DNA of 64,000 nt from Turneriella parva DSM 21527 (lineage in GTDB: Bacteria; Spirochaetota; Leptospiria; Turneriellales; Turneriellaceae), in assembly GCF_000266885.1 (NCBI RefSeq), contig NC_018020.1, positions 3,720,001-3,784,000 of the forward strand. The letters run 5' to 3'. A model generated the notes under the pieces. It searched no databases, had not been told where the DNA came from, and saw nothing but the letters and a program-made list of their open reading frames with translations. Shown here in pieces: positions 4,622 through 38,045 of this stretch (positions are counted from its first letter, which is position 1; every line of letters starts with the position of its first letter). Position numbers and translations under genes: made by a program.

Positions 4622-4703
4622 GCAAGAAATTGTAACTTTCTCTTTTCATGGAGTTTCATAGCCGATCATGCTTTACTCGCGTTTGATATATATGCAAAAA
4701 GTC

Positions 4704-4744
4704 GAAAAATTTTCCAAAATTTTGTATACAAATATCCGGGGATG
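4704..4744. repeat. noncoding motif shared with 13299-13339 (copy 1)
   Basis: AATTTTCCAAAATTTT, then TATACA, then TCCGGGGATG. A near-identical arrangement (AATTTTCAAAATTTT, TATACA, TCCGAGGGATG) occurs at 13299-13339. Both copies are preceded by TACTCGCG, though at different distances. Both lie in gene-free DNA bounding the replication-like module. Candidate origin iteron, partition or regulator site. Confidence 0.45.
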
Positions 4745-4809
4745 TGAAAAAGCTTGGTCTCACAATCTGTTTGCTTTTCTGACTGCACGTCAAAAACATG
4801 ACGGGAAAA

Positions 4810-4836
4810 TTGATTTAAACGCGATTGTTCTATATG
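4810..4836 (+). promoter_or_regulatory. candidate promoter for the structured RNA at 4842
   Basis: TTGATT at 4810-4815, a 15-bp spacer, and TATATG at 4831-4836. The spacer is short, but the predicted start point near 4842 coincides with the first base of the large inverted-repeat structure. Confidence 0.35.
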
Positions 4837-4841
4837 GTTGA

Positions 4842-4954
4842 TTAGTACCGACCTGAACGACCGCAGCGTGACCGGCCGAGAGGCCTCCATTACTCGTATG
4901 GGGGTCTTTTGGCGTATTTGACTTCGGTCACGCTACGTCTGAAGGCCGTACTAA
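4842..4954 (+). ncRNA. candidate structured RNA (nested inverted repeats)
   Basis: Outer arms TTAGTAC (4842-4848) and GTACTAA (4948-4954) are complementary. Inside them AGCGTGACCG (4865-4874) pairs perfectly with CGGTCACGCT (4925-4934). Inside that, GGCC-GAGA-GGCC (4874-4885) and CCAT...ATGG (4887-4900) can each form a small hairpin. The internal-loop strands contain CTGAA on both sides. No convincing ORF covers the segment (520-bp gap 4622-5142), and a plausible promoter ends just before it. It matches no RNA family I can name. It could equally be an origin or transfer site that works as DNA, so orientation is only a guess. Confidence 0.4.
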
Positions 4955-5142
4955 CCCTATGGGTAGTGGGGGCCACTCGGCTCAATTCCTCTATACGACA
5001 ATCCCGCCAAAACTCAGTTTTAGACCATTGCGGCATGATTTGCTGAGCTAGCGTTCGCCCCCGCGTCCAATGCAGGGGTTTAGGGACTTTATAGTATCAG
5101 CAGCCCCTGTACGGCAATCGGTCTGCAATCTATGGAGGAAAC

Positions 5143-5661
5143 ATGCCAACACCCGAACAAATTCGCAAATATGAAGCGGATATGATCAAGTATCAGAACG
5201 ATATGGCTCGATACCACGAGCTACAGGAAGAATGGGACAGTCTATCGCCCGAAGAGAAAGAATACGCGGACTTCGAGGCCGAAATGGGGCAAATTTTCTG
5301 GTTTAGCTCCATCTCTGTAGGCTTGATCGCAACAAGCGGATTGCTTTATCTAAAGCTGCATTGGGCGCTTTCCTTGTTGCTCGGGATCGGTGCTGGCCTG
5401 GGATTAACCTCTTTAATGAAGCAGACCAAGCTCTTCTTCTTTACTGGAAGGTTCTTTCGTGCAACATTCTATGGCTTTCTATTGAATGCAACCTGGTGGT
5501 TATTTCAGCTTATCTTCAGTTCGCTAAAAATTAAATCCAATACGACGGCCTGGATAGTTGTCGGCATACTATATGCACTGGCATTCGCGGCCGAATTGCT
5601 CGGTATTACCAAAGCGAGTGCCGCACCGAAGAAACCTTCGGAGCCGGCGAAACCAATCTAA
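5143..5661 (+). CDS. small membrane protein with N-terminal coiled-coil
   Basis: 172 residues, ribosome site TGGAGGAAAC directly before ATG. Residues 1-48 are charged and helical (EQIRKYEADMIKYQNDMARYHELQEEW), likely a coiled coil. Hydrophobic segments follow near 50-68, 72-90, 100-125 and 135-155, then a Pro/Lys-rich tail. No family recognised. It is followed 17 bp later by a secreted protein gene, probably in the same operon. Confidence 0.7.
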   Translation: MPTPEQIRKYEADMIKYQNDMARYHELQEEWDSLSPEEKEYADFEAEMGQIFWFSSISVGLIATSGLLYLKLHWALSLLLGIGAGLGLTSLMKQTKLFFFTGRFFRATFYGFLLNATWWLFQLIFSSLKIKSNTTAWIVVGILYALAFAAELLGITKASAAPKKPSEPAKPI

Positions 5662-5678
5662 TAGCTAGAAGGAGCAAT

Positions 5679-6587
5679 ATGTTTAGACTTATCCTAATCC
5701 TTTCAGGCCTCGTCCTGATCACCGCAAACATCTTTTCCGCCGATATGAGCATAGAATTCGTACGGCGCCTTGCAGCCAACAAGAAGAAATATGACAAACT
5801 CCAGAGTGAAAGCAGAGATCAAAAGGCAGCGAACACATGGCAGGAAACTGACAATCAATTGCAGGCCACCTTCAAGACCGGCAACTGGTACACACTTCCG
5901 AATCAGTGTGCAGCCTTTCGGCGCATGCATTCAAATCGAATAGAAATCGAATGTGATCTGCCAGACCTTAAGCAACCACCGGAATCTTATGTTCCGAAGA
6001 TTGACTTCGAACTGATGTCGAGTAAACTAAACGGAAAATGGGAGGACGCGGAACTCGACACGCCCTATGCGATAAAGTTCAAACTAACCCGAAAGCGGCT
6101 CATGGACTCAGCCCTCTACAAGTCGCCGTGGCAGATAGGCTATGTTCACACTGGAATTGAAGGTTTTACATTATACGTAGATGCATTCCAAATCCTCGGA
6201 AAGAGAGAAGTAGCTGCGGAGGATCTTAACCAGTCAGGTCGAAATGGCCAGCCTCTCTCATACAAAGAGAAGGTGAAGATAATGTCCGGTGAAATTGCTC
6301 CGATGATGCAGGATATTGACTATAGGCCACAATTTATTTCAACATCCAAAGTCAAAGGTGTACTAAGCAATGGCCTGGCAAACTCCTGCAAGATGCCGGA
6401 TATCGAGGTAAGTAAGGAAACGGTAAACAGAATGCAGGAACTTTCGATCGAGAAAAATCTCCCGCTGGAGCGTGAAGACCTGCAATCCTATGCCCGGTAC
6501 GAAATCTGTTCTATCGTCAACGGAGGAGTCGCGGAAAGCCCATGCCTCGATGCCTGTTATGAGCGGATGGCAGGAACCTTGGATTAG
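5679..6587 (+). CDS. secreted or periplasmic protein of unknown function
   Basis: 302 residues, ribosome site AGAAGGAGCAAT. The N-terminus MFRLILILSGLVLITANIFSA is a typical signal peptide. The mature part has several cysteines (QCAAF, ECDLPD, SCKMPD, EICSI, PCLDACYE) that could form disulfides. No family recognised. Its pairing with the membrane protein upstream suggests an envelope-located complex encoded by the mobile region. Confidence 0.7.
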   Translation: MFRLILILSGLVLITANIFSADMSIEFVRRLAANKKKYDKLQSESRDQKAANTWQETDNQLQATFKTGNWYTLPNQCAAFRRMHSNRIEIECDLPDLKQPPESYVPKIDFELMSSKLNGKWEDAELDTPYAIKFKLTRKRLMDSALYKSPWQIGYVHTGIEGFTLYVDAFQILGKREVAAEDLNQSGRNGQPLSYKEKVKIMSGEIAPMMQDIDYRPQFISTSKVKGVLSNGLANSCKMPDIEVSKETVNRMQELSIEKNLPLEREDLQSYARYEICSIVNGGVAESPCLDACYERMAGTLD

Positions 6588-6607
6588 GGAATTTTTCTGA
6601 GGCAATC

Positions 6608-7405
6608 ATGTCAGACATTTATGGCATCAAACGCCTCAAGACAATTGAAGATTGGATTGAGGTCGTAAGCCGAAGGCACTACAAACCGGGCCACAGCGCC
6701 TATGAATGTGCACATCGTTGGCAGAACATAGGTGCTCGTTTTCCGGTAGAAATCGAAGCGATCCTTCGTGAGTCAAAAAACCGATTGTTGGGCGCTCTTG
6801 AAATCAAGCAGATCTACGCTGAATACCCTGTATGGTTAGATACGCATACTACGCCAAGCAAGAACGACCTCATGATTTTCGCAGAGGGGCCCGGCAACCG
6901 CAAGGTAGTCCTGGCAGTAGAAGCGAAATGTGACGAGACCTTTGCGCAGCCTGTGGATACCTGGATTCGAACTGCTGACAAGCCTGGACCGCGGCACCAG
7001 CGCAAACTCTTCAAGAAAGCCTCTGGCCCCGTAGAGCGCAAAGTCCGCCGTCTGGATTTTCTGAACACTATTCTCTCAACCAGCATAAGTCCTGACAGCA
7101 CCTTGAGGTATCAGTTGCTTCATAGAACTGCTTCTGCTATACTCACCGCGCGCCAAACCTATGCCGAAGCTGCGGTCGTGTTGATTCAGGCGTTCACAGA
7201 CTCAGAAAGAAACTTTCAGGATTTTCAGGCTTTTTGCGATCTGCTCAGATTTCCTGGAGTTGCCAAGGACGCTGTGATCGGGCCCTATTTTACCGCCGCC
7301 CTGCCTGAAGTTCCAATCTTCCTCATCTATTTTCAGGATCGTCGGCAAGGCGATCGCCCACACGATTCATTATTTCCAGAACCTTCAACCACCCAGGCCG
7401 CCTGA
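6608..7405 (+). CDS. DUF6946-like PD-(D/E)XK nuclease family protein
   Basis: 265 residues; GAGGCAATC precedes the ATG. The opening (TIEDWIEVVSRRHYKPGHSAYECAHRW) and the core SKNDLMIFAEG...KVVLAVEAKCDETF resemble the DUF6946 group, which I recall as restriction-endonuclease-like. The core gives the D-(x)n-ExK catalytic pattern: the Asp of NDLMI, then Glu and Lys in VEAKCDE. It probably cuts or binds DNA or RNA. It sits between envelope genes and recombination genes, so it may be a cargo defence gene. Confidence 0.65.
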   Translation: MSDIYGIKRLKTIEDWIEVVSRRHYKPGHSAYECAHRWQNIGARFPVEIEAILRESKNRLLGALEIKQIYAEYPVWLDTHTTPSKNDLMIFAEGPGNRKVVLAVEAKCDETFAQPVDTWIRTADKPGPRHQRKLFKKASGPVERKVRRLDFLNTILSTSISPDSTLRYQLLHRTASAILTARQTYAEAAVVLIQAFTDSERNFQDFQAFCDLLRFPGVAKDAVIGPYFTAALPEVPIFLIYFQDRRQGDRPHDSLFPEPSTTQAA

Positions 7406-7468
7406 GGACTTCTCTGAGTCATCAGGCAGGATGATTCCTGACCTGAAAACATAGTGAAGGAGAAGAAT

Positions 7469-8242
7469 ATGGAAAACAATATTAAAGAAATGCTGCAGAG
7501 GCTTGCGGCGCCTTTCCCCGAATCGGCTGTGAAATGGCGCGCCGCTTTGTCGGGTATCAACGGTAAGGGAGATGCATACGTGCTGGCCGTGCCCTACATT
7601 GATGCCCGTGCTATTCAGGATCGACTCGACCAGGTCGTCGGTGCGGAGAACTGGATGGCCGAATACCGGCAGGGCGCCAATAACGGGACGATGTGCAAAC
7701 TCAGCCTGCGCATCAATGGTCAGTTTGTGAGCAAAGAAGACGGCGCTGACATCAGCGAAATCGAACCGATCAAAGGTGGAATCAGCAACTCCTTTAGGCG
7801 CGCTGCCGTGGTATGGGGTATTGGGCGCTACCTGTACAAGCTCAATCAAATGTATGGCACTGTAACGGACAACGGTCTCTACAAAGGTTCAGCTAAAGAC
7901 CGTACGAACGGCCAATGGTTGAACTTCCGCTGGAATCCCCCTAAGTTGCCACCCTTCGCCATTCCGGAGCCGAACCTGAAAGTTCTGAATGGTGAGAAAG
8001 CCGTAGCAGCTCAGAAAGAGCCAACAAAACCCGCTGTCCGAACAGCGTCAGCTCCGGTCGCACCCATCAAATCAGAGATTACTATGGCTGACGTACCTGC
8101 AAGCCTGAGAGACCTGTTTGCGGAGCTACAGATCAGTGATGCTAAGGCCCTCGATCTGTTGAAACGCAAGGCGTACAATTATTCAGAGGTTGAGCGAATT
8201 CTGCAAGGTATTCGCGTCGACTCTGTCGCTGCTGGAGCATGA
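7469..8242 (+). CDS. Rad52/DdrA-type single-strand annealing protein
   Basis: 257 residues. The first 130 residues match the Rad52/Rad22 fold used by phage Sak-type recombinases: VPYIDARAIQDRLDQVVGAENW, then a KEDGADISEIEPIKGGISNSFRRAAVVWGIGRYLY stretch, the signature that ends the annealing core. A Pro/Ala linker follows, then a short C-terminal helical domain. ATG 7469 was chosen for its AAGGAGAAGAAT ribosome site; an upstream in-frame GTG at 7454 is unlikely. The stop overlaps the Gp157-like start as ATGA. Expected role: annealing complementary single strands during element replication or recombination. Confidence 0.85.
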   Translation: MENNIKEMLQRLAAPFPESAVKWRAALSGINGKGDAYVLAVPYIDARAIQDRLDQVVGAENWMAEYRQGANNGTMCKLSLRINGQFVSKEDGADISEIEPIKGGISNSFRRAAVVWGIGRYLYKLNQMYGTVTDNGLYKGSAKDRTNGQWLNFRWNPPKLPPFAIPEPNLKVLNGEKAVAAQKEPTKPAVRTASAPVAPIKSEITMADVPASLRDLFAELQISDAKALDLLKRKAYNYSEVERILQGIRVDSVAAGA

Positions 8243-8919
8243 CCGTGGCCGCTGGAGCCAAAGCTACTGCGGCGGGCGAGCAGACATCCAGCAAAGTAAC
8301 GCCTGCCAACTATGGCAGGTTTACTTTGTACGAGATTGAAGACTCGGTGCGAAGCGCCATTGAGCTCCTGGAGCTCGTGGTCGATGAACATGGAGAGATC
8401 GTCGACGAAAAACTCGAAGGTCAGATTCTTGAACGGCTGAATCAGTTGAATCTGGCCAAAGAGTTGAAGGCTACGAATGTCGCAGTCTACATCAAGAGTT
8501 TGTGGGGCCAGGTCTCATTGCTGGAACAGGAACGAATCAAGCTTGCCCGTCGGGAAAAATCACTGGCGAAAAAAGCTGAATGGCTTACGAAGTACCTGGT
8601 CTCGTATCTTCAGCTTGATCCGGCTAAGCCTGGAATGCTCGTCTCGGGACTGCGTGCCAATATCGGATGGCGGCGCTCTGACAGCGTCGAAGTCATCGCT
8701 CCCTCAAGGTTACCGCTGCCATACCAGAAGGCTAGTATCGCGGAGGTCAGCGATGAGGAGTTGGCAAAACACGGTCAGGTATTGCGCACACTTGAGGGAT
8801 ACCGTACAGACCCGCGGAAAGACCTGCTGAAGAAGCGCATCAAAGCGGGACTTGCGAAAGGCCGAAAGTACACGCATATCGCACGACTCGTAGAAAAATA
8901 CAACATCCAGATTAACTGA
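8239..8919 (+). CDS. Gp157-like phage protein (host-nuclease resistance family)
   Basis: 226 residues. A short disordered start is followed by the pattern of siphovirus Gp157 proteins: FTLYEIEDSVRSAIELLE, an acidic stretch, then a long coiled coil (SLLEQERIKLARREKSLAKKAEWL) and a beta region. In phages, Gp157 relatives usually neighbour single-strand annealing proteins; the original member was reported to affect phage resistance. The ATGA overlap with the Rad52-type gene fits that pairing. The last 50 residues are basic and look like an added domain. Confidence 0.7.
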   Translation: MTVAAGAKATAAGEQTSSKVTPANYGRFTLYEIEDSVRSAIELLELVVDEHGEIVDEKLEGQILERLNQLNLAKELKATNVAVYIKSLWGQVSLLEQERIKLARREKSLAKKAEWLTKYLVSYLQLDPAKPGMLVSGLRANIGWRRSDSVEVIAPSRLPLPYQKASIAEVSDEELAKHGQVLRTLEGYRTDPRKDLLKKRIKAGLAKGRKYTHIARLVEKYNIQIN

Positions 8920-8979
8920 CAGACCAAAATCTCCCCCTGTGACCGGGCAACCGGCGCAGGGTTTTGTTTTATAGAGCAG

Positions 8980-9720
8980 ATGACAGCCACTGCTCAGAAA
9001 TCTTCTGCACTCGATCAATCATCAGAACGGTTTAAGTCCCTGACCATGTCAGCCCGCAATGGGTGCAAAAGAAGCCAGGACGCACTCATACTGCATTGCC
9101 AACAACTTGTGAATGGAATCCTCAAGGGTTACCGTATTTGCGGGGAAATCTACAATGACTGTAAAAGCGAAGCTGCGATTGCGACTATAAAAGCTGTAAG
9201 GACATTCAATCCGCACCGTGGTTTTTCCCTTTCGAGCTATGCTTCATGGTATATCCACGCTGCTATCAGGAAGACATTAAGGGAGAACAAGCTGATATCG
9301 ATCCCAAAGGGCAAATGGTACCAGGCAAAAGCTGCACAAGAATCAGCGGATTGCCTCAGCACTACGAATACTACACTTTTTGCAGCACAGTTTCCGCAGA
9401 CAAGCCTGTTCTCTGAAATTCAATTTGAGCCAGAACAAATTTCGGCCAATTCGCGGTCAGTAGGCCCTGCAGACTTCGCAGAGCGCAATTATCTCGAGGA
9501 AGCCATTTACAAGGGTTTGGATCAACTTCCTGCTTTCGAGAAACGCGTAATTTCCGGGAGATACGGAATTAGCCAGGAAAAACCCGTCAGTTCGCGCGAA
9601 ATGGCCAGAAGGCTGAACTGTAACCGCTCAGCCATCGTGAAGGCAGAGGAGACTGCCAAGAGATCGCTGCAGATTTATTACGAGGCAAAAGGCCTACGTT
9701 CGTTCATAGGAGAAGAATAA
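8980..9720 (+). CDS. sigma-70 family RNA polymerase sigma factor
   Basis: 246 residues. Region 2 is visible at about 25-110: a core-binding helix (ALILHCQQLVNGILKGY), then TFNPHRGFSLSSYASWYIHAAIRKTL, the FxxYAxWWIRQAI-like region 2.3/2.4 pattern. Region 4 at about 170-240 (LDQLPAFEKRVISGRYG...SSREMARRLNCNRSAIVKAEETAKRSL) is a normal HTH. Region 1.1 is absent, so it is a group 3-like factor. It lies in the middle of the phage-like module and probably directs transcription of element genes; its promoter sequence cannot be read from this window alone. Confidence 0.85.
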   Translation: MTATAQKSSALDQSSERFKSLTMSARNGCKRSQDALILHCQQLVNGILKGYRICGEIYNDCKSEAAIATIKAVRTFNPHRGFSLSSYASWYIHAAIRKTLRENKLISIPKGKWYQAKAAQESADCLSTTNTTLFAAQFPQTSLFSEIQFEPEQISANSRSVGPADFAERNYLEEAIYKGLDQLPAFEKRVISGRYGISQEKPVSSREMARRLNCNRSAIVKAEETAKRSLQIYYEAKGLRSFIGEE

Positions 9721-9723
9721 TCA

Positions 9724-10485
9724 ATGCTGGATCTACAAACTTGCAATATCCCCGCAGTATTGGCGCAGGAGCCTTCGAAAGAAGTATCCGGTCGATACTC
9801 ATTCATACCAACTACGCGCCTCATCGACGACCTGAAGACCATGGACTGGCTTCCAGTGGGCGCAAAAGGGAGCACGAGAGCACACGATGTCGCAGCCCGA
9901 CACATGATTCGTTTTCGGTCTCGCGAACACCTGGAATCGCCTGTGCAAGCTGTCTGTCCTGAGCTGGTTGTTATTAACGCACACAACGGTTTGTGCTCAT
10001 TCAATTTAAAGGCAGGACTCTTTCGCCTGGTATGCTCGAATGGGATGATCGTGTCAGAGGCAGTATTTGCCTCAATAAAGATACGCCATATTAATTACAC
10101 CTACGAAGCCGTGCGAGATGCGGTGTTTCAGTACGCAGCGCAAATGCCTCAAATCACGCAGAAAGTTCACGAACTGCAGGCAATCCGCCTTGATGAAACC
10201 CTGAAGACGACCTTTGCACGCCAGGCACTCGCGTTGCGCTTTGAAGATCGACCTGATGCAGCGCAGTTGGTCGATGTACAGTCACTCTTGCGGCCGATGC
10301 GTACGGCAGACACCGGACAGGATGTCTGGTCTGTTCTCAACGTACTGCAGGAAAAGCTGATAAACGGCAAGTTTGTTATCGGTGACAAAAAGCGACAGGC
10401 AAGATCAATCCAAAATGTTCAGAGAACTGTGAGTCTGAACCAGCGGCTATTCGATCTGGCCGTATCCATAGGAAAACTGGCATGA
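9724..10485 (+). CDS. DUF932 (phage/plasmid-like) protein
   Basis: 253 residues, ribosome site AGGAGAAG inside the end of the sigma factor gene. The family pattern is clear: RYSFIPTTRLIDDLKTMDWLPV, AARHMIRFR, PELVVINAHNGLCSFNLKAGLFRLVCSNGMIV. DUF932 proteins are common on phages and plasmids with no settled biochemical role. The end overlaps the next gene as ATGA. Confidence 0.8.
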   Translation: MLDLQTCNIPAVLAQEPSKEVSGRYSFIPTTRLIDDLKTMDWLPVGAKGSTRAHDVAARHMIRFRSREHLESPVQAVCPELVVINAHNGLCSFNLKAGLFRLVCSNGMIVSEAVFASIKIRHINYTYEAVRDAVFQYAAQMPQITQKVHELQAIRLDETLKTTFARQALALRFEDRPDAAQLVDVQSLLRPMRTADTGQDVWSVLNVLQEKLINGKFVIGDKKRQARSIQNVQRTVSLNQRLFDLAVSIGKLA

Positions 10486-10868
10486 AGCAAGTAGCGCGTA
10501 CACCCATTCTCCCGGGAATCAAGATCTTACCCTTGAACTACGAGGTGCTTGAGATCAATTACACCACCGTTGAGGTCAGAAGGCCTGACGGATTCATCGT
10601 TTTCTTTGATCGCAGAAAAGATCCGTGCTCGACATTGCTGAACAGGATTCGCCTGGCATTGCCGCCAGAGACCGTCATCCGCCTCGTTGGTACGATCCGC
10701 GGATACCAAGCTTCAATTACCTACGCATCCAAGTATCAGAAATCAGCGCTCCATCAGCAAAAGCAGCAGTTGAAGCAGTTTGTTCACTGCATGAATCAAG
10801 CACTGGAGCTTGGATTCGACGCGCACAAGTTTCTGCAGGAAGAACCCAAGACGATTAAGGCGGCATAG
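10482..10868 (+). CDS. unknown small protein downstream of DUF932
   Basis: 128 residues, starting at an ATGA overlap. No family recognised. Predicted beta-rich first half (NYTTVEVRRPDGFIVFFDRRKD) and a helical second half with a Gln/Lys-rich stretch (YQKSALHQQKQQLKQF). Translational coupling suggests it works with the DUF932 protein or the AAA+ protein that follows. Confidence 0.65.
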   Translation: MKQVARTPILPGIKILPLNYEVLEINYTTVEVRRPDGFIVFFDRRKDPCSTLLNRIRLALPPETVIRLVGTIRGYQASITYASKYQKSALHQQKQQLKQFVHCMNQALELGFDAHKFLQEEPKTIKAA

Positions 10869-10871
10869 GCA

Positions 10872-13019
10872 ATGGGCCGAGGATACTGTCGACCGATGAA
10901 CGGAGTCTCCCATCGGGTCAATAAGCACCGCAGTGACTTCTTGTTTGTTCTCCATAACCTTCAGTCACATGACGAACTACTACGACAGGCATTTGGCTTT
11001 GTGGCAGCATTAGCCTCCGAAGCAGACATTCTGAAGCTCTGCCAAGAACTTAACTTCACCCCGGCTGTGATTGCCGAAGTTGAAGCTGATTGCCTGACAG
11101 ACAGATCAGAGCTCTTCGACCGGCTGAACTATCTGTCATCGAGGATAACCAACTCAAGTGAACAGACTAAGCTCAAACTGGCAAAAAAGTTGATTCGCGG
11201 TCTGCTAGAAGGCACCCCGGCGAAGTTACATTGGCAGAATAACGAGTTCTTGCTATACCTGCGGGATAATCTATCTCTCAATGAGACAGAGCTGCAGTTG
11301 CTCTGGATCTTGTACTTACGCCAATCAAGCCCTGAGCTTGATTTCCTCAATATGGGCATTTCTGGCCTTGCCGATGAGCTCTATATTCTTGAAGCATGCT
11401 TCGCAATGCCAGCCGAGAAAACGGGGGAAGTCCTATTAAGGGATTCCCTGTTAAGTCGGACTGGGCTGCTCGAGCCCGTAGGCGACACTATGCAGCTGCC
11501 GGCCAGAGTGTTAATGGCAATTGCAGGTAGTATCTCAATAACCGCCTTTCAGGCCGAGAGTTTTAGGAAAGATACTGCACCTGTATATGATCTGGCCTCA
11601 TTCGATCTGAATGCGATCGATATCAAAATCATGCTCGCTCTCTTGAAGAGTGAAGGACCTGCGAACATCCTCCTTTATGGCAAACCAGGCTGCGGGAAAA
11701 CCGAAGCTGCCCGCAGTCTCATTCGGGCAGCGGGACTCGATATTCTGCACGTACCGGTTCACTCGACAGGAGGCAGGCATTCGCGACTGACCCGCTTGCG
11801 TTACGCGGATTATTTCGCCCAGGGCAGCGGCCTGATTATTGATGAGGCTGAGCTCATCTTGAACATTGCAGTGAAGTTTATGGCCTTCGAAAGCGACTCG
11901 ACGCCCTCCAAGTCCGTTTTGAACACTTACCTGGATTCCTCAAGAAGCAAAACCATATGGATTCTGAATGACACCAACCACCTTCACGAATCAACAATGC
12001 GGAGGTTTAATTTTCGCCTCCAATTCGATAAATTATCCAGAAAACAGCGCAGCCATGCTTTGGATCTGATCATTCGCAAGCATGGTATTGAATCACTAAT
12101 TTCGCCAGAAATGGCCGAGCAATTGCTCTCTGATGAGAACTTAAGTCCTGGAGTGCTAAACCAAATGGCACATGCCCTTGTACAAGCCTCAAAGGTTTCA
12201 CCAGCTCAGGATAGTGGGAAAATTATCGCGCGCTTGTTGGCTTCGAATCGGCAGCCAGACAAACCGCTGGAAGAAGAGTCCAAAGTACATACTGCTTACA
12301 GCCTTGAAGCACTGAATCTATCCGTAGACCCGAATCAGATCGTTCAATCCCTGAAAAGCTTTCTCTCCTCGCCTAGAAGTCCTCGCAATGGCGTGAACCT
12401 TCTTTTCTACGGAATTCCCGGCACCGGCAAGACAGAGTTTGCTCGATATCTCTCCCATTGCTTATCGCGTGATCTCATTATTAAGCGAGGAAGTGATCTC
12501 TTAGGCATGTATGTCGGCAGTACGGAGCAATCAATCGCTGCCGCATTCAAGCAAGCCCAACAGAACGAAGCAGTTCTGCTCATTGATGAGGCAGATACCT
12601 TTTTTCAGTCACGCGTTGAGGCCCGGCAGACCTACGAGATTTCCAGAACCAATGAATTTCTCAACCAGATGGAGAATCACAACACGGTTCTCATTTGTTG
12701 CACCAACCTGATCGACACCTTTGATCAGGCTGCCCTTCGCCGGTTCGCGATGAAGCTTGAATTCAAGGCATTGCAGGCTGCACAGACACCCATTCTTTTT
12801 CAAACCTATTTTAGTTCACTTTGCGAGGCAATGCCTGATGCCGAAGAAATATCTCGGGCCATCGGTAGTCTGGATAACCTCACACCTGGGGATTTCCGTA
12901 ATGTTGAGCGGCGCGTGCTGCTCGGACAGGGTAACGTCACGTGGGATGTACTTGTAGGCGAGTTGCGAGAAGAAATCCGCAGTAAAGCACGAGGTTCCGT
13001 TCGGCCTATCGGCTTCTGA
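10872..13019 (+). CDS. double-AAA+ ATPase
   Basis: 715 residues. A helical N-terminal domain of about 230 residues is followed by two AAA+ modules. First module: GKPGCGKT near residue 268 and GLIIDEAELI Walker B. Second module: GIPGTGKT near 513, VLLIDEADTFF near 568, sensor NTVLICCTN and an arginine-finger region RRFAMKLEF. The second module is of the Cdc48/FtsH-like 'classic' type. The tandem arrangement resembles Cdc48/ClpX-type remodelling machines, but no protease or zinc site is present. It could act as an unfoldase or loading factor for the element's replication or recombination proteins. Confidence 0.8.
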   Translation: MGRGYCRPMNGVSHRVNKHRSDFLFVLHNLQSHDELLRQAFGFVAALASEADILKLCQELNFTPAVIAEVEADCLTDRSELFDRLNYLSSRITNSSEQTKLKLAKKLIRGLLEGTPAKLHWQNNEFLLYLRDNLSLNETELQLLWILYLRQSSPELDFLNMGISGLADELYILEACFAMPAEKTGEVLLRDSLLSRTGLLEPVGDTMQLPARVLMAIAGSISITAFQAESFRKDTAPVYDLASFDLNAIDIKIMLALLKSEGPANILLYGKPGCGKTEAARSLIRAAGLDILHVPVHSTGGRHSRLTRLRYADYFAQGSGLIIDEAELILNIAVKFMAFESDSTPSKSVLNTYLDSSRSKTIWILNDTNHLHESTMRRFNFRLQFDKLSRKQRSHALDLIIRKHGIESLISPEMAEQLLSDENLSPGVLNQMAHALVQASKVSPAQDSGKIIARLLASNRQPDKPLEEESKVHTAYSLEALNLSVDPNQIVQSLKSFLSSPRSPRNGVNLLFYGIPGTGKTEFARYLSHCLSRDLIIKRGSDLLGMYVGSTEQSIAAAFKQAQQNEAVLLIDEADTFFQSRVEARQTYEISRTNEFLNQMENHNTVLICCTNLIDTFDQAALRRFAMKLEFKALQAAQTPILFQTYFSSLCEAMPDAEEISRAIGSLDNLTPGDFRNVERRVLLGQGNVTWDVLVGELREEIRSKARGSVRPIGF

Positions 13020-16123: not shown

Positions 16124-16544
16124 GACTTACAACTAAAAACGGTAACACTTACGCAATCAATATTAATCTCAGAAAGTGCCAATGTTGGTAAACTGGTTAC
16201 CACTTGGCGTCACTACGACGTGGTCAGCCTTGCAAGGCTGACCACGCAAGCGCGCGCACGTCATCCAACAATAGTAATAAGCTGCGCGAGCGAGCAATTT
16301 GTGGGATCGCATGCTTGGCCTCACCCACGAAGAAGCCTTGCCTCCGCATGCACGGGACGTGCATTCGGTGCGGCACAACGCTGTTGGTTCGGCAAATTGA
16401 TGACGCGCATATCCAGTCTCCGAAAGAAGCCCGCATTTAGGGCGCGGCGCGTCCTAAGCTTCTTGTAAATCCAACGTTGCAGTATTGGCGCCTCTTACAT
16501 GTGTAGACTTCATCTGGGCTTTGCAATGATTTTTTGGCAGCAAA
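16124..16544. other. 421-bp gap without a convincing gene
   Basis: Short ORFs here overlap each other in several frames and have no family features. The stretch holds the 28-bp palindrome at 16219-16246, an inverted CAATTTG/CAAATTG pair and two GCATGC sites. I see no promoter pair or RNA gene I can defend. Confidence 0.5.
16219..16246. repeat. 28-bp perfect palindrome
   Basis: CGTGGTCAGCCTTG is followed at once by its exact reverse complement CAAGGCTGACCACG, with no spacer. It sits 95 bp beyond the start of the minus-strand STAND-like gene, so it could be an operator for that gene or a recombination scar. Confidence 0.6.
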
Positions 16545-22359: not shown

Positions 22360-22776
22360 TCAGAAGAGTTTCATTTCTGGAATCATGGAAAGCACTGAAA
22401 AGTAGCCAATCGTTAAGCCGAGCACGAAGTAGAAAGGAAAAATCGTTTTAGAAAAAAAGACCCCGCAAAAACCAACCTGATTTGCCAAGTGTCCCGTCTT
22501 CATCGAAAAATCAATGTGCTTTTCCTTCTTTGCTCTAACCTCATCAAAAAGCAATCTATATAATCGTTCTTGCCTGAGGTAAAAGGTATCGAGAAACCAG
22601 AACAATAGGATCGGAATAATCGCATATATCGCAAAGGCGACAAGCTTTTCCTTGAGCGACAAGACGAGAATACCGGTTACAAGACCTGTTGACCAAGTCT
22701 TGATTGAGAACGAGTTGCTGCCCATCCGGGTGATAATGTTAGAAATCAGTTCCAGATGTTTTCGCTTATTGTCCAT
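22360..22776 (-). CDS. small membrane protein partnered with a TIR protein
   Basis: 138 residues. A charged N-terminal helix (DNKRKHLELISNIITRMGSNSFSIKTWS) is followed by transmembrane segments at about 30-65 (two) and near 110-130 (one). The NSFxxKxW motif before the first helix is characteristic of a small membrane family I recall beside TIR genes. Its start lies inside the end of the upstream TIR gene (11-bp overlap), so production is tightly coupled. Possible role: a membrane effector or an anchor for the TIR protein. Confidence 0.7.
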   Translation of the reverse strand: MDNKRKHLELISNIITRMGSNSFSIKTWSTGLVTGILVLSLKEKLVAFAIYAIIPILLFWFLDTFYLRQERLYRLLFDEVRAKKEKHIDFSMKTGHLANQVGFCGVFFSKTIFPFYFVLGLTIGYFSVLSMIPEMKLF

Positions 22777-23338
22777 TTAGCCACCCTTTGAATTGCTTAT
22801 AGGTTTCTGGCGCCGTGCATACCCAGATTAATTCACTGCCATTGCCACCTTTAGCCGTCGCGTGAAAGGCGTATGGATACAAACCCAAGTATTCCTGACC
22901 GACATACTCAAAACCGGCTCGACTTGTCTGCAATATCGGTAGTACGGCAACCTTATTTTTGAATGCGTCAAAATATCCCAATTCCCAAGGCATCCAGACT
23001 GAACTCTGTGAGTTCTCAGTGAAAGCGTAGACTAAGCATCTGCATTGTTTGAGGCGAGTGCGCAGTGTCGCTGCGGTTTGTCGGTCAACCTTTGTCCGAT
23101 CTAATCCCTTGTCGACAACCCAATCAACGTAAACCGAGAATCCAGCGGCTTCAAACTCCAGCTTCAAGCCAAGTATCTCGTTTGAATCCAGATAGCTGTG
23201 AGAGAGGAAAATATCAAACTTATCGGCATTGTTTATCCGACTAAAGTTTTCCGCAAGGACCACTCGACTGTCCTTACGTACTGCATTGGCTCGCGTCTGT
23301 CCTTTGAGCCGCAAATCATTTCGTACGTATAATCCCAT
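22766..23338 (-). CDS. TIR domain protein
   Basis: 190 residues. Residues about 35-160 are a TIR fold: KFDIFLSHSYLDSNEI (strand A and BB-region), FSVYVDWVVD, then CRCLVYAFTENSQSSVWMPWELGYFD, where the Glu of WELGYFD is the position of the catalytic Glu in NAD-cleaving TIRs. The gene overlaps the membrane-protein gene downstream. Bacterial TIR proteins usually deplete or convert NAD during infection; whether this one is active is not known. Confidence 0.8.
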   Translation of the reverse strand: MGLYVRNDLRLKGQTRANAVRKDSRVVLAENFSRINNADKFDIFLSHSYLDSNEILGLKLEFEAAGFSVYVDWVVDKGLDRTKVDRQTAATLRTRLKQCRCLVYAFTENSQSSVWMPWELGYFDAFKNKVAVLPILQTSRAGFEYVGQEYLGLYPYAFHATAKGGNGSELIWVCTAPETYKQFKGWLNGQ

Positions 23339-23501
23339 ATTAAATCAAACGGCGCAAGCGGTGTCTGTACCAGTCTCACGATCATCGTCGCTGGCAAGTA
23401 AATTCCGTTGGATTGCACGCTTATAGCAAACATGGGGAACTTGCCAATAATCTGGTACGACACATGTCTGCAGAGAACAAGGGCTATACGCCCCTTGAAA
23501 T

Positions 23502-23984
23502 TTATTCTTCATCATCCTCATCGTCCTCTTCAAGAAACCTCTCCAGCGCATCCTCAATCTCGCTGCGTATCCGCTCGAACGTCGATTGAATATTGTTCCC
23601 GACGAACGGCTCATACACGATGCCTGCAATATTAGAAAACTCCTCAACGGGCTCCTGTCTTAATACCAAAACATTTTCTCGGCCAAACTTACCCTGAAAG
23701 TAGCCTATTTCATGCACGACATTCTGACGTGCCCGAATACTTCCGTCTGCTTGTTCATCCTCAGCCGTCATTACAATGATGGCATAGTGGCACTCATCAG
23801 TTTCCTCATCAAGTTTCTCAATTATCGTGCGCCCTCGATTAACCTGATCTTTTAATATGACCACATCGATTTCAAGCTGCGTTCGCACGAAACGTTCGAC
23901 TTCTTGCCACAAGGAGCTCCGTCCGTGCGAAACAAAAATCTTAAATTCTTCGACCATCTCTTCATCATCACTTTCTTCAAACAT
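23502..23984 (-). CDS. TIR-like (CAP12/nucleotide-binding type) protein
   Basis: 160 residues, ribosome site TTCAGGAGGTTACA. The pattern EFKIFVSHGRSSLWQEVERFVR, VVILKDQVNRGRTIIEKLDEET, CHYAIIVMTAEDE and RQNVVHEIGYFQGKFGRENVLVL is that of the predicted nucleotide-binding TIR-like family found in CBASS and Pycsar effectors. The HEIGYF Glu is the expected catalytic residue. The C-terminus is very acidic (LEEDDEDDEE). No separate sensor domain is attached, so it may need a partner. Confidence 0.8.
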   Translation of the reverse strand: MFEESDDEEMVEEFKIFVSHGRSSLWQEVERFVRTQLEIDVVILKDQVNRGRTIIEKLDEETDECHYAIIVMTAEDEQADGSIRARQNVVHEIGYFQGKFGRENVLVLRQEPVEEFSNIAGIVYEPFVGNNIQSTFERIRSEIEDALERFLEEDDEDDEE

Positions 23985-24020
23985 TGTAACCTCCTGAATG
24001 CCCCACCCTCAACCTTAGGT

Positions 24021-24812
24021 TTATATTCGATTGTCTTGTCGTGGCGGTCTCAGTTCGTACAGAACGTCCAGGGCCTGAAGACCTTTCTGATTTTGGCAAG
24101 CATCGCGCCATTCTATCAAACTATCAACTTCCATTGTATTTAAATGCGATAAGTCTACGCGATGTATAATCTGTAAATCTGACTTCTCCAAACTCTCTTC
24201 AAGCTTTCCCCCATATTTATTGAATCGATTCTCCCGGGTCTTCTTTTTGGGACGTAGCAATTGACTCATTGCTAACTCATGGTAAATCCAGGGGGAAAGC
24301 GTCTGGCCCTGATCCCTCACCGTTTCTTCCACAGTTATCGAGGCAGGCGTATTGAGAAAAAAGAGGCACTCGCAATTATCCATCATTCTTGTTAGAGCCG
24401 TGGCAAGCATTATATGAACATGGCTCGTCGAATAATTACGCTTATCATAATCATAAGTCTGACTATTCGCGTTGTAGCAATACTCTTTATCGATGGCCTT
24501 GAGCAGAGCGTTTGAGTGCCCCCATGCGCAGGAATCAATAAATGAAAAAAGTTCAAAAGACTTGTAAAGCCAACCCGCAAGTGCAATGGCCAAGTCTTCA
24601 TCTTTGTGAGCATGAGAGATGAATACATCGGCCTGAACCTGAGGAAACCAATTTGCCTGCATCTTTGTCGCGTCGAGTATTCCGTCCTTCCGCAAATATG
24701 GATCCAAGGTCTCGCGAAAGATATTTTTGATCGCGCCGTGAACGGCTTTGCCAACAACCAGGTCTGAAGCAAAGTCATCAGAATCAAGTGTTACATTAAA
24801 TCCACGATACAT
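24021..24812 (-). CDS. TIR/toll-like domain protein
   Basis: 263 residues, starting 7 bp after the helicase stop. An N-terminal 60 residues precede VFISHAHKDEDLAIALAGWLYKSFELFSFIDS, a TIR start, followed by LMDNCECLFFLNTPASI-type strand D and TLSPWIYHELAMSQLL with the expected catalytic Glu. A 50-residue insert with Tyr-rich sequence lies in the middle. The C-terminus is helical. The 7-bp spacing ties this TIR directly to the methylase/helicase set. Confidence 0.75.
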   Translation of the reverse strand: MYRGFNVTLDSDDFASDLVVGKAVHGAIKNIFRETLDPYLRKDGILDATKMQANWFPQVQADVFISHAHKDEDLAIALAGWLYKSFELFSFIDSCAWGHSNALLKAIDKEYCYNANSQTYDYDKRNYSTSHVHIMLATALTRMMDNCECLFFLNTPASITVEETVRDQGQTLSPWIYHELAMSQLLRPKKKTRENRFNKYGGKLEESLEKSDLQIIHRVDLSHLNTMEVDSLIEWRDACQNQKGLQALDVLYELRPPRQDNRI

Positions 24813-24819
24813 GGTAATC

Positions 24820-27579
24820 TCACCGCCACCCCGTCGCCAGCAACTCCAACCGCTCCACCTTGTTCAGCACCTCAGAACATTCCTCCCATTTCGGACCCGT
24901 GATGTTTGCGTTGGTATTGTAGCGAATATCAAACGGATGCTTCTGTACCACGGCATTGATACGATTCTGAGCTTCTTCGATGCGACCAAGGGCTGTATGA
25001 ACCCATACGTCTTCGAGCGTGTCGGGTATCTGACCGAACAGGTCATGGATATCATTGAGACGTGAAGAGAGTCGTGCGTGAACTTCATCTTCGACAGACC
25101 CGAGGTAGCGCATATTATAGACAAAGACTTTCTCGTACCGCTGACCAATACGTTGGATACGGCCTTTGCGCTGTTCGAGGCGCGTTGGGTTCCAGGGTAA
25201 GTCGAGGTTGATGAGGGAGCCAAGAATCTGCAGGTTTAAGCCCTCGCTGGCAGCATCAGTGCCGACGATGAGCTTGATTTCGCCCGACTTGACCATGCTC
25301 TTAATTTTCTCACGCTCAATGCGGGTCTTACGGCCATCGAGGTAGATGGCTGATTTCTGCGCGCCTGCATAGAGACCAATCGTGAGATCATGATATTGCG
25401 CTGACAAGCGGCTCGCGACGTATTCTGCCGTGTCAAAATACTGGCTGAAGAGTATGCAGCCTCGCTCGCGCCAGGGGCCAGTATCGGCGGCGCCATGATC
25501 GAGCAGGTGAATCACACGATTATACTTGGGGTCCGCATCGAGCCTTTCAGCCAGGGCATTCACGATGCGCGTGAGCATTTCATTTTCTTCGGGTGTATTA
25601 CGTGAGCTGCCCTGCTCTGCCGATAGCTCTTCGAATTCTGAGCTATCCTCTTCTTCGAGATCAAACTCTTCAGTCCGGGCCTCACCGAGAAGGCGCTTGG
25701 CTGTATTCAGGCCTGCGACCATAGAACTTCCGATGCGGCGCAGAAGCAGAGTCTGTAAGAAGCCCGCGCTGCGCGTACGTTTAGCCAAGAGACGGCAGTA
25801 CTCGAGTGCGGAATCGTAGGCATCCTTCAGATAGCCTGGCAGCTCCAGCGCCTCGATGTCATCTTCACCGTAGAGCTGGACTTCGACTTTCTGCAGGTAT
25901 GGCTTGTTGGTTTCGGGATCGATCGTGTTTTCCAGGTAACCGCGTGTACGCCGAATGATTGAGCGAATGAACGGGTTATGAAATTTGAAGAACGATGCCT
26001 TGAGATTGCGCACCTTGCTCTTTGTCGGGGCATCCAGTTCAGCCTGCTTCTCCAGTTCAGCTATGGTATCGGCGTCACCCATATTCAAAGTATTGCGGAT
26101 CGAACGAAACGGGAGCACCCCGGTTTCGTCCTTTTCATCGGCTGGTGGCAAAGGATTTCGTAGCCAGTTCCAGAATTCGATGTCATCCAGGGCCTGGCCT
26201 GATTCATTGATTTTGCCCAGCGCCTCATCAGGGTGGCGCCATGGGCTGAATTCATTGCCCAAGACGTGCTGTTTGTCGATGGACAAAGCGCTCAACAGAT
26301 CCCAGGCTTCAATGGGGTGCAGCTGCACCGGTGTCGCCGTGGCGAGCAACAGAGTCTTGGTCTTTTCGGCGATTTGTTGAATAAATTCCAGAAGATTGTT
26401 CACTTCAGGTCGTGACTCGTTCTCAGGATTCGCTCCCATCGATTTGCGCCGCGCCCTGTGGGCTTCATCCACGATGACGCACTCGTAATTTCCTTTGAGC
26501 AAGGTTGTGTACGCGTTGCCACGCCGAGAGATCAGCCCTTGTGAAATGATACCGATTCTCCGCGGGCAATGCTGAATATACTGACCGCCTTTTTCATGTT
26601 CCACGCCGTTTTCATCAATCCAGGAGCTACCAGTCCAGTAGGCCGAGGGAACTTCGAGCAGGTTCCAAAACTCCTCTTGCCATTGTTGCATCAGCGTCTT
26701 GGGAACAACGATGAGTACAGGGAGCTTTCCGGCAAGGGCAATCAACTGTGCCGCCATTGCCAGCTGCAATGTTTTACCGAGACCCACCTGATCGGCGAGA
26801 ATCAGCCGTGCACCCTCATACCGTTTATGCTCGTCGAAAGCGCGTTGAACGAAGTACTTCTGGTGATTCCAGAGTCCGTTATGTTTGCGATAAACAGGGC
26901 TCTCTATTATAGGCGCGGCAGGGTTTGAATTGCCCAGCCATTCAGGCATGGTGAAAACCTTGCGCTTCGCAGTCCTTTGGATATCCTGAATGATTTCCTG
27001 TGTCAGAGTCAGCGCATGCGCATCACCCCAGAGGCTATCGAACTCATTTTGCACCCAGGTAACTGCAGACTGATCGTCATCTTCCCAGACCAACTCATAA
27101 TTGAGCTGCCAGGCGGTTATGGATTCGTTCGCGCTGCCCATGAAGGCGGTTTTATTGCCATCGTGAAAGGTTATCACTCCCGCTTTGCCATGAATGAGGC
27201 CAAACCGATCGTCTGGGAGAATGCGCACCTCCATGCGGCCGGTATTGAGCAGATGATAGAGTCTTTCCAAGACCGAACCCGTGACAGGTTTTTCGGGCAG
27301 ATCGAAATCGCACCACTCATTCCACAAAGCCTGCTTGAATGCAGGCATCGATGGCTCTTGGTTGGCTGAGTAGATATTGAAGGTGATCTTTGAGTTTGCC
27401 ACCACGCGCACTTTGCCGATGGCTGCGATCTCTTCGCCCGCAACCTGGATGATCGATGGACTGAAGAAGCCCGCGATGCGGTCGTATGCTTTCGCGCGGG
27501 AGAGCTTTTCAGCCAGAAAGCCTTTGCCCAGGCTTTCGCCCGAATGGCGCATGAGACGAGATGAATAGCGGGCAATCAT
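24820..27579 (-). CDS. PLD-like nuclease domain fused to SNF2/DEAD helicase
   Basis: 919 residues. Near residue 128 an HGKAGVITF...NKTAFMGSANES stretch is an HKD-type phospholipase-D nuclease motif. The helicase follows: DQVGLGKT near 261, VDEAHRAR near 370, LLATATPVQ, and in the C-terminal lobe ILFSQYFDTAEY, GTDAASEGLNLQ near 783 and RKGRIQRIGQ. This PLD-SNF2 plan is known from defence systems, where the helicase moves along DNA and the PLD domain cuts or only binds. The gene starts 2 bp after the methyltransferase stop. Confidence 0.85.
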   Translation of the reverse strand: MIARYSSRLMRHSGESLGKGFLAEKLSRAKAYDRIAGFFSPSIIQVAGEEIAAIGKVRVVANSKITFNIYSANQEPSMPAFKQALWNEWCDFDLPEKPVTGSVLERLYHLLNTGRMEVRILPDDRFGLIHGKAGVITFHDGNKTAFMGSANESITAWQLNYELVWEDDDQSAVTWVQNEFDSLWGDAHALTLTQEIIQDIQRTAKRKVFTMPEWLGNSNPAAPIIESPVYRKHNGLWNHQKYFVQRAFDEHKRYEGARLILADQVGLGKTLQLAMAAQLIALAGKLPVLIVVPKTLMQQWQEEFWNLLEVPSAYWTGSSWIDENGVEHEKGGQYIQHCPRRIGIISQGLISRRGNAYTTLLKGNYECVIVDEAHRARRKSMGANPENESRPEVNNLLEFIQQIAEKTKTLLLATATPVQLHPIEAWDLLSALSIDKQHVLGNEFSPWRHPDEALGKINESGQALDDIEFWNWLRNPLPPADEKDETGVLPFRSIRNTLNMGDADTIAELEKQAELDAPTKSKVRNLKASFFKFHNPFIRSIIRRTRGYLENTIDPETNKPYLQKVEVQLYGEDDIEALELPGYLKDAYDSALEYCRLLAKRTRSAGFLQTLLLRRIGSSMVAGLNTAKRLLGEARTEEFDLEEEDSSEFEELSAEQGSSRNTPEENEMLTRIVNALAERLDADPKYNRVIHLLDHGAADTGPWRERGCILFSQYFDTAEYVASRLSAQYHDLTIGLYAGAQKSAIYLDGRKTRIEREKIKSMVKSGEIKLIVGTDAASEGLNLQILGSLINLDLPWNPTRLEQRKGRIQRIGQRYEKVFVYNMRYLGSVEDEVHARLSSRLNDIHDLFGQIPDTLEDVWVHTALGRIEEAQNRINAVVQKHPFDIRYNTNANITGPKWEECSEVLNKVERLELLATGWR

Positions 27580-27581
27580 GG

Positions 27582-30500
27582 TCAGCCTGCGTCGTTGGTC
27601 AGCACCCCGGCCAGAAGCCCAGCCATTTTGAATTCGGCGCTGCGGTGTCTCACGCTGTGTTCAAAGCGCGAGAGATATTCGAGCAATTTGATGATATTCT
27701 GCCGACGCGACCAAAAGTCAGGAAGCTCTGATCGTAAGTAATTGCGACCAACTTCTGGGTTCTCTTCGGCGACAGAGATGTTGATTGCATACAACAGATG
27801 CCGCAGGGTTGAGCTATTAAAGCCGTCACCCGTCATCTGCCCGGAACCAAACTCAGCCGCAGTTTTCACCCGTGCTTCATTGGCCCTCACGCTGCCCAAA
27901 AGCTCGGTGTAATCCCGAATGCCATAGTTCTTCGCCAGTTCTTGAAACGCACCGGCTTTGTTTTCGCCTTTCGATTCAAAATCCAGCCCGCGCAGGTAAT
28001 AGCGTTCTTCGGGAGAGATGGATCTCCAGAGAAGGATGTCAAAGGCTTCAGGAATACGTATTGCTGCCGCAACATTGCGCGCGTTTTCGATGATGCTTTC
28101 GAGCGGACTTTTGGCATCTTTGCCCGTGCGCGAGAGTTCTCGTTCGACGTTGAGGTCTTCAATCTGCCGATAACCGGTGATGACGCGCAAGGCTGCGGCA
28201 TACGCCGCGAGCTGGTAATCGGTGTCGGAAAAATTGGGTTCTTCTTTGTCTTCGATGCGCTCCATCGATTCAACCTGAGCTTTGACTTCTTGTTCAATGC
28301 GGGGTACCATCTCATCGAGAAAGGCGACATCAGACGAGATATTCTTCCTCAAAATCAGGAGCACAGTACCTTGAACGTAGTTACCTTCTTTAAGGGCTGA
28401 GGTCGTTTCAGTAGCAATTGTCCACGCAGAAGTAACTTGAAGCCCGGACGCCCAAAGAATGACAGCAAGGTCTGCCCATACACCTGCGTCTTGATGGGTG
28501 AACATGACGGTTTGCATTCCGTTGTCGGGCATGAGCCTGCAAAGATTTGAATACGCCTTAACCATTGCTCGTCGGAAACCTTCACCATCACCTTGAATTG
28601 CAAGTGACCGGCGTGAATCATTGCTCCAAGCAGGAAAAAGCCGGTTAAGAAATTTTTCATACCACGCTAAGAAGAACTCAGAAAGCTCATGATAATTAAT
28701 AGCATCTGCGTATGGCGGATCAGTAATCCAAAGGTCATTATCGCAGATAACCTTTTCTGCAACGGTTGTTTCAATTATAGCGGTGCCAGCATGGCTTACG
28801 TTCTTTACGTCGAAGACCAAACCACCACCATACCAACGTTCCCGAATCTCCGAAAATCCTCTAATCGCGTAATCAAATAGGGTATTTAAGGCCTGATTTG
28901 AATATGTTTCCGAAATAGACTCTTTGCTACCTCCTACGCGGAAGCGACATAGTTTGCTATTCCAATTCGTGATCGAGCCGAATAGGGATAGGTTTCCCGC
29001 AATGAGATCTCCACCTACGCTCTGAATCTTTGAGTTCAGAAACCCCAAAAATAGTAATTGCCGAGCACAAAACAAATGATGCCAGTGCGTCCATCCGCGC
29101 TCCCGAATCGGTTGATCCGTATTATATCCTGATTCAATCTTTCGAGATGGAACAATACCATTCTTCTGCCACTCTGCGAAACTTGCCTGCAACAAGGACA
29201 ATACCTTGGCCTCACGCTGCAAATCCGCCTGGTCAGGTGCTGCATAATAGCGATATTCCTTATCTGTCGCCTTGCTGATTAATTCTTGACACAGCTCACG
29301 AAAATGATCATTATTGTCCCCAAGGGGGAGCGTTCCGGACGATGGTGCAGGGTCCGCAAGGGCATTGTCACGCCCCCTTCGTATATACATCGTATTGAGA
29401 CTGAGTTCCTTTTTTCCCGTGCGGGTCTCTGTCAGGTAGAAGATTGCACCGTTGATGCGCTTCTCGAAAATCAAAACCTCTAAGCCGCGCTTGTTCTTCT
29501 CAGGCGACACAGAGACTTTGTCATAATTCTGCAAAACATAGGGTATGAGTTCAAACGCCTCATCGGTCACTGCGATTTGTCCGCGTTTCTCTTCATGTTC
29601 TGCATCACCATGGTCTTTGATGACCTTGCGTATTGCATAGTTGTCGATAGAGTAAGAGTATCCGCTGAGATCAATACCAGTGGCCTTCTTAAGATTCTTT
29701 GCCTGCTTCTCATCGATTTCATCGAGCAGTAATTTGTGCTCTTCGTTGTCCTTCTGCAATCGTGCAAGGCGAACCAACGTGCGTACTCGCTCGTGTGCTG
29801 GCGGCACGACCCAGCGAATACAGTAGAGGCGTTCTTGAAAAACGTCGTCTGGCCGCGGCACCACGTCTTCGTTTTCCCACAACCGCAATCCACCTGAATT
29901 CTCACGGCGAATGATCGACATCGGTATCGGGTTGGGGTTCTTAGGATGAACGACGTAGTTACTCTTGACCGTGCCTTCTTTGGCGGCCTTCATTTCAGCC
30001 GCAGTAGCGTTCATCTTGATTTTGATGTCGTAACGCTTCTTCTTTTCATCGGGCACCAGAATGCCAACTGTCTTGGTCTTCTCACCGATCACCCAGGACG
30101 GAGCGAGAGGCACCATCCAGCCTGTTTCAGGGTCTTTGACTTCGACACAGTACAGATACGCGTCGGCGCGATGTCCCCTGGCATTGTGCTCGATTCCCCA
30201 TTCGCAAATCTGTTGGTCGACGGCATCATAGACTTCCTGTTGTGCCTTTTTGACTTGTTCAGCCACTTCAGGCCCACCGCCGACAATGTGAATCGCCGCC
30301 CAGGTGAGTAGTGCCGCGACCGGATTCAGATCTGAGGCATACACATCGCAGCCCAGGCGTGCTGCCTCAAAGGGAATGCTTCCGCCACCGCAGAATGCAT
30401 CACCGACTTTCGGGTTATGACCAAAACGGCGTTGACCCAGCTCTTGAATCAATTCTTGTAAGTTCTTTGCTTTTGTGCCCAGGTGAGCATTGATCTCCTT

Positions 30501-31085: not shown

Positions 31086-31113
31086 TGTGTCAGGGTATAT
31101 GCGAATCAGACCG

Positions 31114-31662
31114 CTATTCGGTCGGGTTTTCGGTTAACGCAAAGCGGACGGCCTTGCGCCAGCCACGGTTACGCCCCTGCACAGCCTGGCCCGTGGCCGC
31201 GTTCGTCATGGTGAAAAGCCACCAGCGTTCTTCGGGCTTTAAGCCCTGCCAGTTCTTTATTGCAGTGGGGATCTGGCCAGGATCGGCATCTTCGATGGCC
31301 CAACAGAGCAAAAGCAGTTCTTTGCCGAAGAGTCGCGGTAAGATATTGAAGCCGGCATTGAACCTAGAACTCTTCAGGCCCGCACGCTGCAAGCGCTGGT
31401 TAAATTCGAAGCGCACAGGTTCTTCTATCATCTTCCATTTTTCATAGGGCAGAATCACACGTAGAGCCTTGTCCTGAACTCCCAGGGTGTATTCAAGGCG
31501 CCGCCGTTCGGGGCTGTCAAAATACTCGAAATGCTCGCTGATGTAGATGTGAGGGCTCTTCTTATCGCCGAGGTTTACTACAATGTGGTGAGCCGTTTCT
31601 TCGGGATGCAGTCCGAAACTGGCATCTTTTCTAGCAGCGGCAGTGGACTTCTGCTTTTTCAT
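31114..31662 (-). CDS. DUF3780 protein
   Basis: 182 residues, starting with an ATGA overlap with the DUF499 gene. The pattern FGLHPEETAHHIVVNLGDKKSPHIYISEHFEY, RRLEYTLGVQDKALRVILPYEKW and GLKPEERWWLFTMTNAATG fits DUF3780, a family known mainly from this gene neighbourhood. No catalytic motif is seen. It is likely a structural or adaptor subunit of the DUF499/DUF1156 system. Confidence 0.75.
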   Translation of the reverse strand: MKKQKSTAAARKDASFGLHPEETAHHIVVNLGDKKSPHIYISEHFEYFDSPERRRLEYTLGVQDKALRVILPYEKWKMIEEPVRFEFNQRLQRAGLKSSRFNAGFNILPRLFGKELLLLCWAIEDADPGQIPTAIKNWQGLKPEERWWLFTMTNAATGQAVQGRNRGWRKAVRFALTENPTE

Positions 31663-37998: not shown

Positions 37999-38045
37999 CC
38001 TCTTCCATGTCAAGGAAGCGCTCTAACCAACTGAGCTAATTCCGC
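37972..38045 (-). tRNA. tRNA-Val(GAC)
   Basis: On the minus strand the 74-nt sequence folds as a full cloverleaf: acceptor GCGGAAT/ATTTCGC with one G-U pair and discriminator A, D arm GCTC/GAGC, anticodon arm CTTCC-TTGACAT-GGAAG with anticodon GAC, T arm ACTGG-TTCGAAT-CCAGT. CCA is not encoded. Its 3' end faces the accessory region, the usual orientation for island insertion. Confidence 0.95.

Follow-up and report, generated by a model that had tools for sequence, protein, structure and literature searches.

A candidate two-state leader RNA ahead of a mobile-element operon in Turneriella parva

Between two plus-strand genes of Turneriella parva DSM 21527, one ending at 4621 and the next starting at 5143 of the 64,000-nucleotide stretch of contig NC_018020.1 that was analyzed here (the window, to whose positions coordinates refer unless contig positions are named), lies a gene-free gap with a long hairpin-forming element at 4842–4954. 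The locus raises the question of whether this element is an RNA, a DNA-level site or a stretch whose preservation says little about function, and, if it is an RNA, what it would act on. The gap, given as 520 bp in a first-pass annotation, measures 521 bp (4622–5142), and the perfect nested arms of 7 and 10 bp described there are both present exactly as stated. The outer arm pairs TTAGTAC (4842–4848) with GTACTAA (4948–4954), and the second arm pairs AGCGTGACCG (4865–4874) with CGGTCACGCT (4925–4934) over 10 perfect base pairs, all on the plus strand; the near-symmetrical internal loop (CCTGAA / CTGAAGG) was also recovered. Two inner hairpins had been proposed, GGCC-GAGA-GGCC and CCAT..ATGG, and both are possible locally, but the predicted minimum-energy fold instead contains a single long hairpin at 4875–4913. 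Its core, GGCCTCCAT-TACTCGT-ATGGGGGTC followed by TTTT (TTTTT in the sibling copy described below), resembles an intrinsic terminator; this terminator-like hairpin (4882–4910, stem −12.3 kcal/mol) belongs to the rod spanning 4842–4954, referred to here as fold 1.

The comparison of folding energy with shuffled sequence suggested by the first-pass annotation was run, and the plus-strand 113-nt element folds at −56.9 kcal/mol, compared with −33.9 ± 3.7 kcal/mol for its shuffles, none of 200 being as good (z −6.17, the same value as for the sibling copy); the minus-strand fold of the element gives z −4.8. A structured noncoding RNA, with a fold beyond chance, arms kept in the sibling and no matching Rfam family, is the best-supported reading. 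The structured nature of the RNA has good support, strong from folding and conservation and moderate from the compensatory changes described next.

The genome searched (4,409,302 bp in two contigs) contains a single sibling copy, which lies in a related island, B, at a distance of 38 kb (the window copy lying in island A). The two copies align without gaps over a conserved plus-strand block at 4807–5006 (contig positions 3686581–3686780 in the sibling), with 180 of 200 positions identical, so that the hairpin is indeed at 4842–4954 but the conserved unit is larger than first annotated. When the full 8 kb was aligned with MAFFT, some of the block was misplaced (82.9%), and the ungapped blastn value of 90% was adopted. 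The operon common to both islands downstream is 71% identical in nucleotides and the genes adjoining the block in one island are unrelated to those in the other; the noncoding block is therefore the best-kept part, and 4953–4992 is the sole 40-nt window without differences in the aligned 8 kb. Within the 113 nt, the copies differ at 13 positions, six of which make up three adjacent base pairs of the outer arm in which both partners differ yet pairing is kept (TTAGTAC/GTACTAA in the window, TTGAGAC/GTCTCAA in the sibling). The first-pass annotation had staked its reading on the arms being conserved in related elements, and this sole relative keeps the outer arm by means of these double-compensatory changes. 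Three compensated pairs arose in 0.04% of trials in which 13 changes were placed randomly; a column shuffle gave 67 of 500, a test with little power for two sequences. Covariation is limited to one helix because only two copies are known, and the three adjacent changes could represent one event or could result from palindrome correction at replication, without selection.

The high identity of the block might also reflect recent ancestry and not function, if these 200 bp were recently exchanged between the islands by gene conversion or inserted as a MITE-like element. The similarity does end abruptly on both sides against unrelated flanks, and the ends of the window copy are weakly inverted (CGCGATTGTTCTATA / TATACGACAATCCCG, 80%). 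However, in the sibling the end repeat matches at only 8 of 15 positions, both copies occupy the same place in their islands (an HNH-like region on one side and the operon on the other), the changes between them are concentrated outside the core and are compensated, and the tail discussed below is unchanged over 40 nt. Neutral exchange is the least likely of the explanations considered here and, in our view, improbable. A MITE in the strict sense was rejected, since such elements are expected in multiple dispersed copies with inverted repeats at their termini and a target duplication, and the genome holds two full copies with no duplication visible at their ends.

The first-pass annotation ended at 4954 and so missed a 3′ tail, CCCTATGGGTAGTGGGGGCCACTCGGCTCAATTCCTCT (4955–4992, plus strand), which is identical in both copies and complementary to the arm of the inner hairpin. 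Its first ~28 nt (4955–4982) are near-complementary to 4874–4902, and pairing between them creates a second rod at 4874–4982, fold 2, in which the start of the 4925–4934 strand becomes part of a TGAC-TTCG-GTCA hairpin. The tail-to-arm duplex was calculated at −48.7 kcal/mol for the window copy (A) and −46.2 kcal/mol for the sibling (B), against −24 ± 4 kcal/mol for shuffled tails (0 of 1000 as good for each copy). For a 149-nt RNA, the two best folds share no base pair and have nearly the same energy, −68.8 and −69.2 kcal/mol in A and −65.0 and −64.8 kcal/mol in B; the gaps are 0.4 and 0.2 kcal/mol, and the two folds are predicted to be occupied at about 74:26 in A and 77:23 in B. Shuffling only the tail while keeping the first 113 nt widened the gap to 19.4 ± 3.4 (A) and 16.4 ± 3.5 kcal/mol (B), with 0 of 500 as small in each case, and shuffling the whole sequence gave a gap as small in 2 of 500 and 5 of 500. 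These energies are model estimates, and the length of 149 nt was picked after the tail had been seen; the near balance holds from 140 to 200 nt, to within 1 kcal/mol in A and 3 kcal/mol in B. The proposed two-state RNA would span 4842–4993 on the plus strand, its 3′ end being approximate.

Whether the conserved structure is that of an RNA or of DNA was addressed by comparing strands and parameter sets. The tail-pairing arms show six differences, five of which are G-U wobbles on the plus strand and A-C mismatches on the minus strand, where fold 2 becomes worse than fold 1 by 11–12 kcal/mol, and single-stranded DNA folds calculated with DNA parameters are much less distinct from their shuffles (z −2.9 and −2.5). 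Together, these three results favor a plus-strand RNA. They weaken the alternative of a DNA-level origin or transfer site, which the first-pass annotation had put forward and which may be widened to include a single-stranded origin, an Frpo-like single-stranded promoter or an attC-like hairpin, acting either as folded single-stranded DNA or as a dyad bound by protein. The presence of long inverted repeats in a mobile island would suit such a site, as would an operon of genes for handling single-stranded DNA (Rad52/Erf-like, Gam-like and DUF932), similar to those of plasmids and phages, but fold 2 is stable only as plus-strand RNA, and no relaxase, Rep or T4SS was recognized among the Pfam domain hits of a general scan covering a subset of the island genes. 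Integron attC cores end at the hairpin base in AAC and GTT, and these ends are absent from the outer arms of both copies. We consider a DNA-level element unlikely, and less likely than a free RNA (see below).

Sites resembling attC do occur elsewhere in the genome. An attC-like repeat end, GTAAAACCAACGTTGT, is present in eighty-odd copies on one strand over about 200 kb (contig positions about 3472000–3668000; up to 2 mismatches, with 1 for controls), lying between small genes, some of them toxin-antitoxin-like. An integron-integrase-like gene (3455166–3455981; 106 bits, under the family cut-off) stands at one end of the array, which looks like a large chromosomal integron, and a stray attC-like site is present inside island A (window 16465–16480).

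The first-pass annotation also had the element begin at the start point of a plausible promoter. A promoter-like stretch (TTGATT, 17 nt, TATGGT; 4810–4841, plus strand) does end just 5′ of the outer arm and is kept in the sibling as TTGAAT..TACGGT, but it matches the sigma-70 consensus poorly, and a consensus scan did not pick it up. Its core, TTAAACGCGATTGTTCTATA, has two sites in the genome with up to 3 mismatches allowed, one per copy, and the conserved block starts 35 nt upstream of the outer arm, the expected place of a −35 box for a transcript beginning at the arm. Separately, a promoter-like motif, TTTANNCGCGNTTGNTNTATA, occurs twice ahead of the leader, 142 bp apart (4672–4692 and 4814–4834), and elsewhere in the genome was found only in the sibling (one mismatch) and at two weak sites; the operon that it precedes encodes its own sigma-like protein.

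That operon (5143–13019, plus strand) begins with two variable genes (5143 and 5679), followed by seven that encode a DUF6946 protein, a Rad52-like protein, a Gp157/Gam-like protein, a sigma-70-like protein, a DUF932 protein, a 128-aa protein and a double AAA protein. The last seven are the part common to the sibling island, the first two differing between islands, and every gene up to 13019 runs in the same direction with little space in between. In the window copy, the interval from the RNA to the first gene gave no call of a terminator with a good U-run or of a promoter-like site, and the ribosome-binding site of the first gene lies outside the block. Because transcription would meet no good terminator or new promoter before this co-directional series, the element reads as a 5′ leader, and a two-state leader RNA that acts in cis on the DUF6946-Rad52-Gp157-sigma-DUF932-AAA operon is our preferred explanation, to which we give about an even chance. 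The difference between the islands in the first two genes counts against it, as the controlled gene is then not obvious. Terminator-like sites within the operon number 10, against 8.5 expected, and are thus at chance level. One such hairpin, at 8301–8320 within the Gp157-like gene, has a stem identical in the sibling island and could be an internal operon terminator or merely conserved coding sequence.

The main rival is a free-standing sRNA of ~150 nt that is made from its own promoter, ends near 4993 and would act in trans, targeting mRNAs or serving as a protein sponge or a 6S-like polymerase decoy. The conserved unit resembles a promoter plus an RNA with a defined end, the genes on both sides have been replaced with the RNA retained, and 4970–4992 contains a weak stem resembling a terminator, GGGCC-ACTC-GGCTC, followed by a tail rich in U and C. 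This stem was called as a terminator in the sibling but not in the window copy, however, and in both islands same-strand operon genes begin 137–144 nt past the block. The 6S model (RF00013) found no match in the genome, a result tempered by its also missing several control genomes. A free sRNA is possible but, in our judgment, doubtful.

The two islands lie side by side (A, roughly 3716803–3757969; B, 3682522–3716528; contig coordinates), each with direct copies of an ISXO2/IS1595-type transposase gene at its ends, and share the operon (DUF6946-Rad52-Gp157-sigma-DUF932-x-AAA) and a defense cluster. The ends of island A are identical 1646-bp direct copies (window 36324–37969 and contig 3716803–3718448), the right-hand one abutting a tRNA-Val gene (window 37972–38045), and the copies that bound island B are diverged. 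The defense cluster (window 22766–34811) contains three TIR-like genes (Thoeris ThsB-like, CAP12/Pycsar-like) adjoining a PLD-helicase, DUF1156 methyltransferase, DUF3780 and DUF499 set; its large genes are repeated in island B with 82–89% protein identity.

Under the preferred leader explanation, a plus-strand RNA of about 150–165 nt would start at about 4842 and head the transcript of the operon, with transcription reading through into 5143–13019. Fold 1, the long hairpin, would be expected to form first because it is complete before the tail is transcribed; once made, the tail (4955–4986) would displace the inner hairpin and convert the RNA to fold 2, an equally stable and fully different rod. 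The RNA may thereby work as a bistable switch in cis on its own transcript, most likely on elongation or termination, or on the stability of the operon mRNA through a 5′ end that is hidden in one state and free in the other. More tentatively, and rather improbably, the element may represent a new family of leader RNAs on mobile elements, in which a 28-nt tail converts a first rod to an unrelated rod of equal energy to toggle or time a recombination/establishment operon, with the variable outer helix serving as an island identity tag.

Relatives of the element were sought widely. No Rfam 15 family reached its gathering threshold, the best local matches being far below; blastn against plasmids and phages returned no relative (matches at E 5, as expected by chance); exact-core scans of viral contigs found nothing; and blastn and covariance-model searches across 296 genomes of the phylum recovered only the two T. 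parva copies. Weak covariance-model matches were rejected (three with many broken pairs and one generic hairpin), as were one further sequence match, AT-rich and attributable to chance, and 34 stretches from a degenerate-core scan of genome contigs, none of which fitted the model. Searches with the operon proteins found nothing close, and Rad52 relatives in other spirochetes lie in unrelated gene contexts. The element has no family match, is conserved more strongly than the recombination genes downstream of it, and carries a tail that seems to have been preserved for the alternative fold. Few structured leader RNAs are known to control the operons of mobile elements, and none is known to have been described for this spirochete group. 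If the switch is real, it would provide a small model system for bistable control by RNA, and two sibling islands with their own versions on one chromosome would reveal whether specificity depends on the compensated outer helix.

Among known systems, 6S RNA (RF00013) is a long, interrupted rod-like RNA, and the element shares this interrupted rod; it differs in having no Rfam match itself, in a genome without a 6S match. The put RNAs of phage HK022 (putL/putR) are structured, follow the promoter of a long mobile-element operon and act in cis on RNA polymerase (PMC9378689), so that the element resembles them as a structured RNA heading a mobile-element operon, the operon here being deduced from gene order; this is a likeness by description, and no sequence similarity is claimed. 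They are about 70 nt long with two stem-loops, and the available part of that account mentions no alternative fold (PMC9378689), in contrast to the ~150-nt predicted two-state RNA described here. The conAn system of plasmid pLS20 (ConAn1 protein and conAn2 RNA) likewise opens a mobile-element operon with an RNA for processive antitermination (PMC8955417). Its operons exceed 30 kb and have many terminators, whereas the operon here is 8 kb with terminator-like sites at chance level, and no ConAn1 partner was identified. With riboswitches and attenuators, the element shares a 5′ leader position, folds predicted to be mutually exclusive and a terminator-like hairpin, but it has no known aptamer (Rfam), and its switching strand lies downstream of that hairpin. 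As this strand is transcribed after 4882–4910, a classical attenuator role was set aside; a put- or conAn-like effect on the polymerase, or control of mRNA stability, would fit the order of events better than textbook attenuation.
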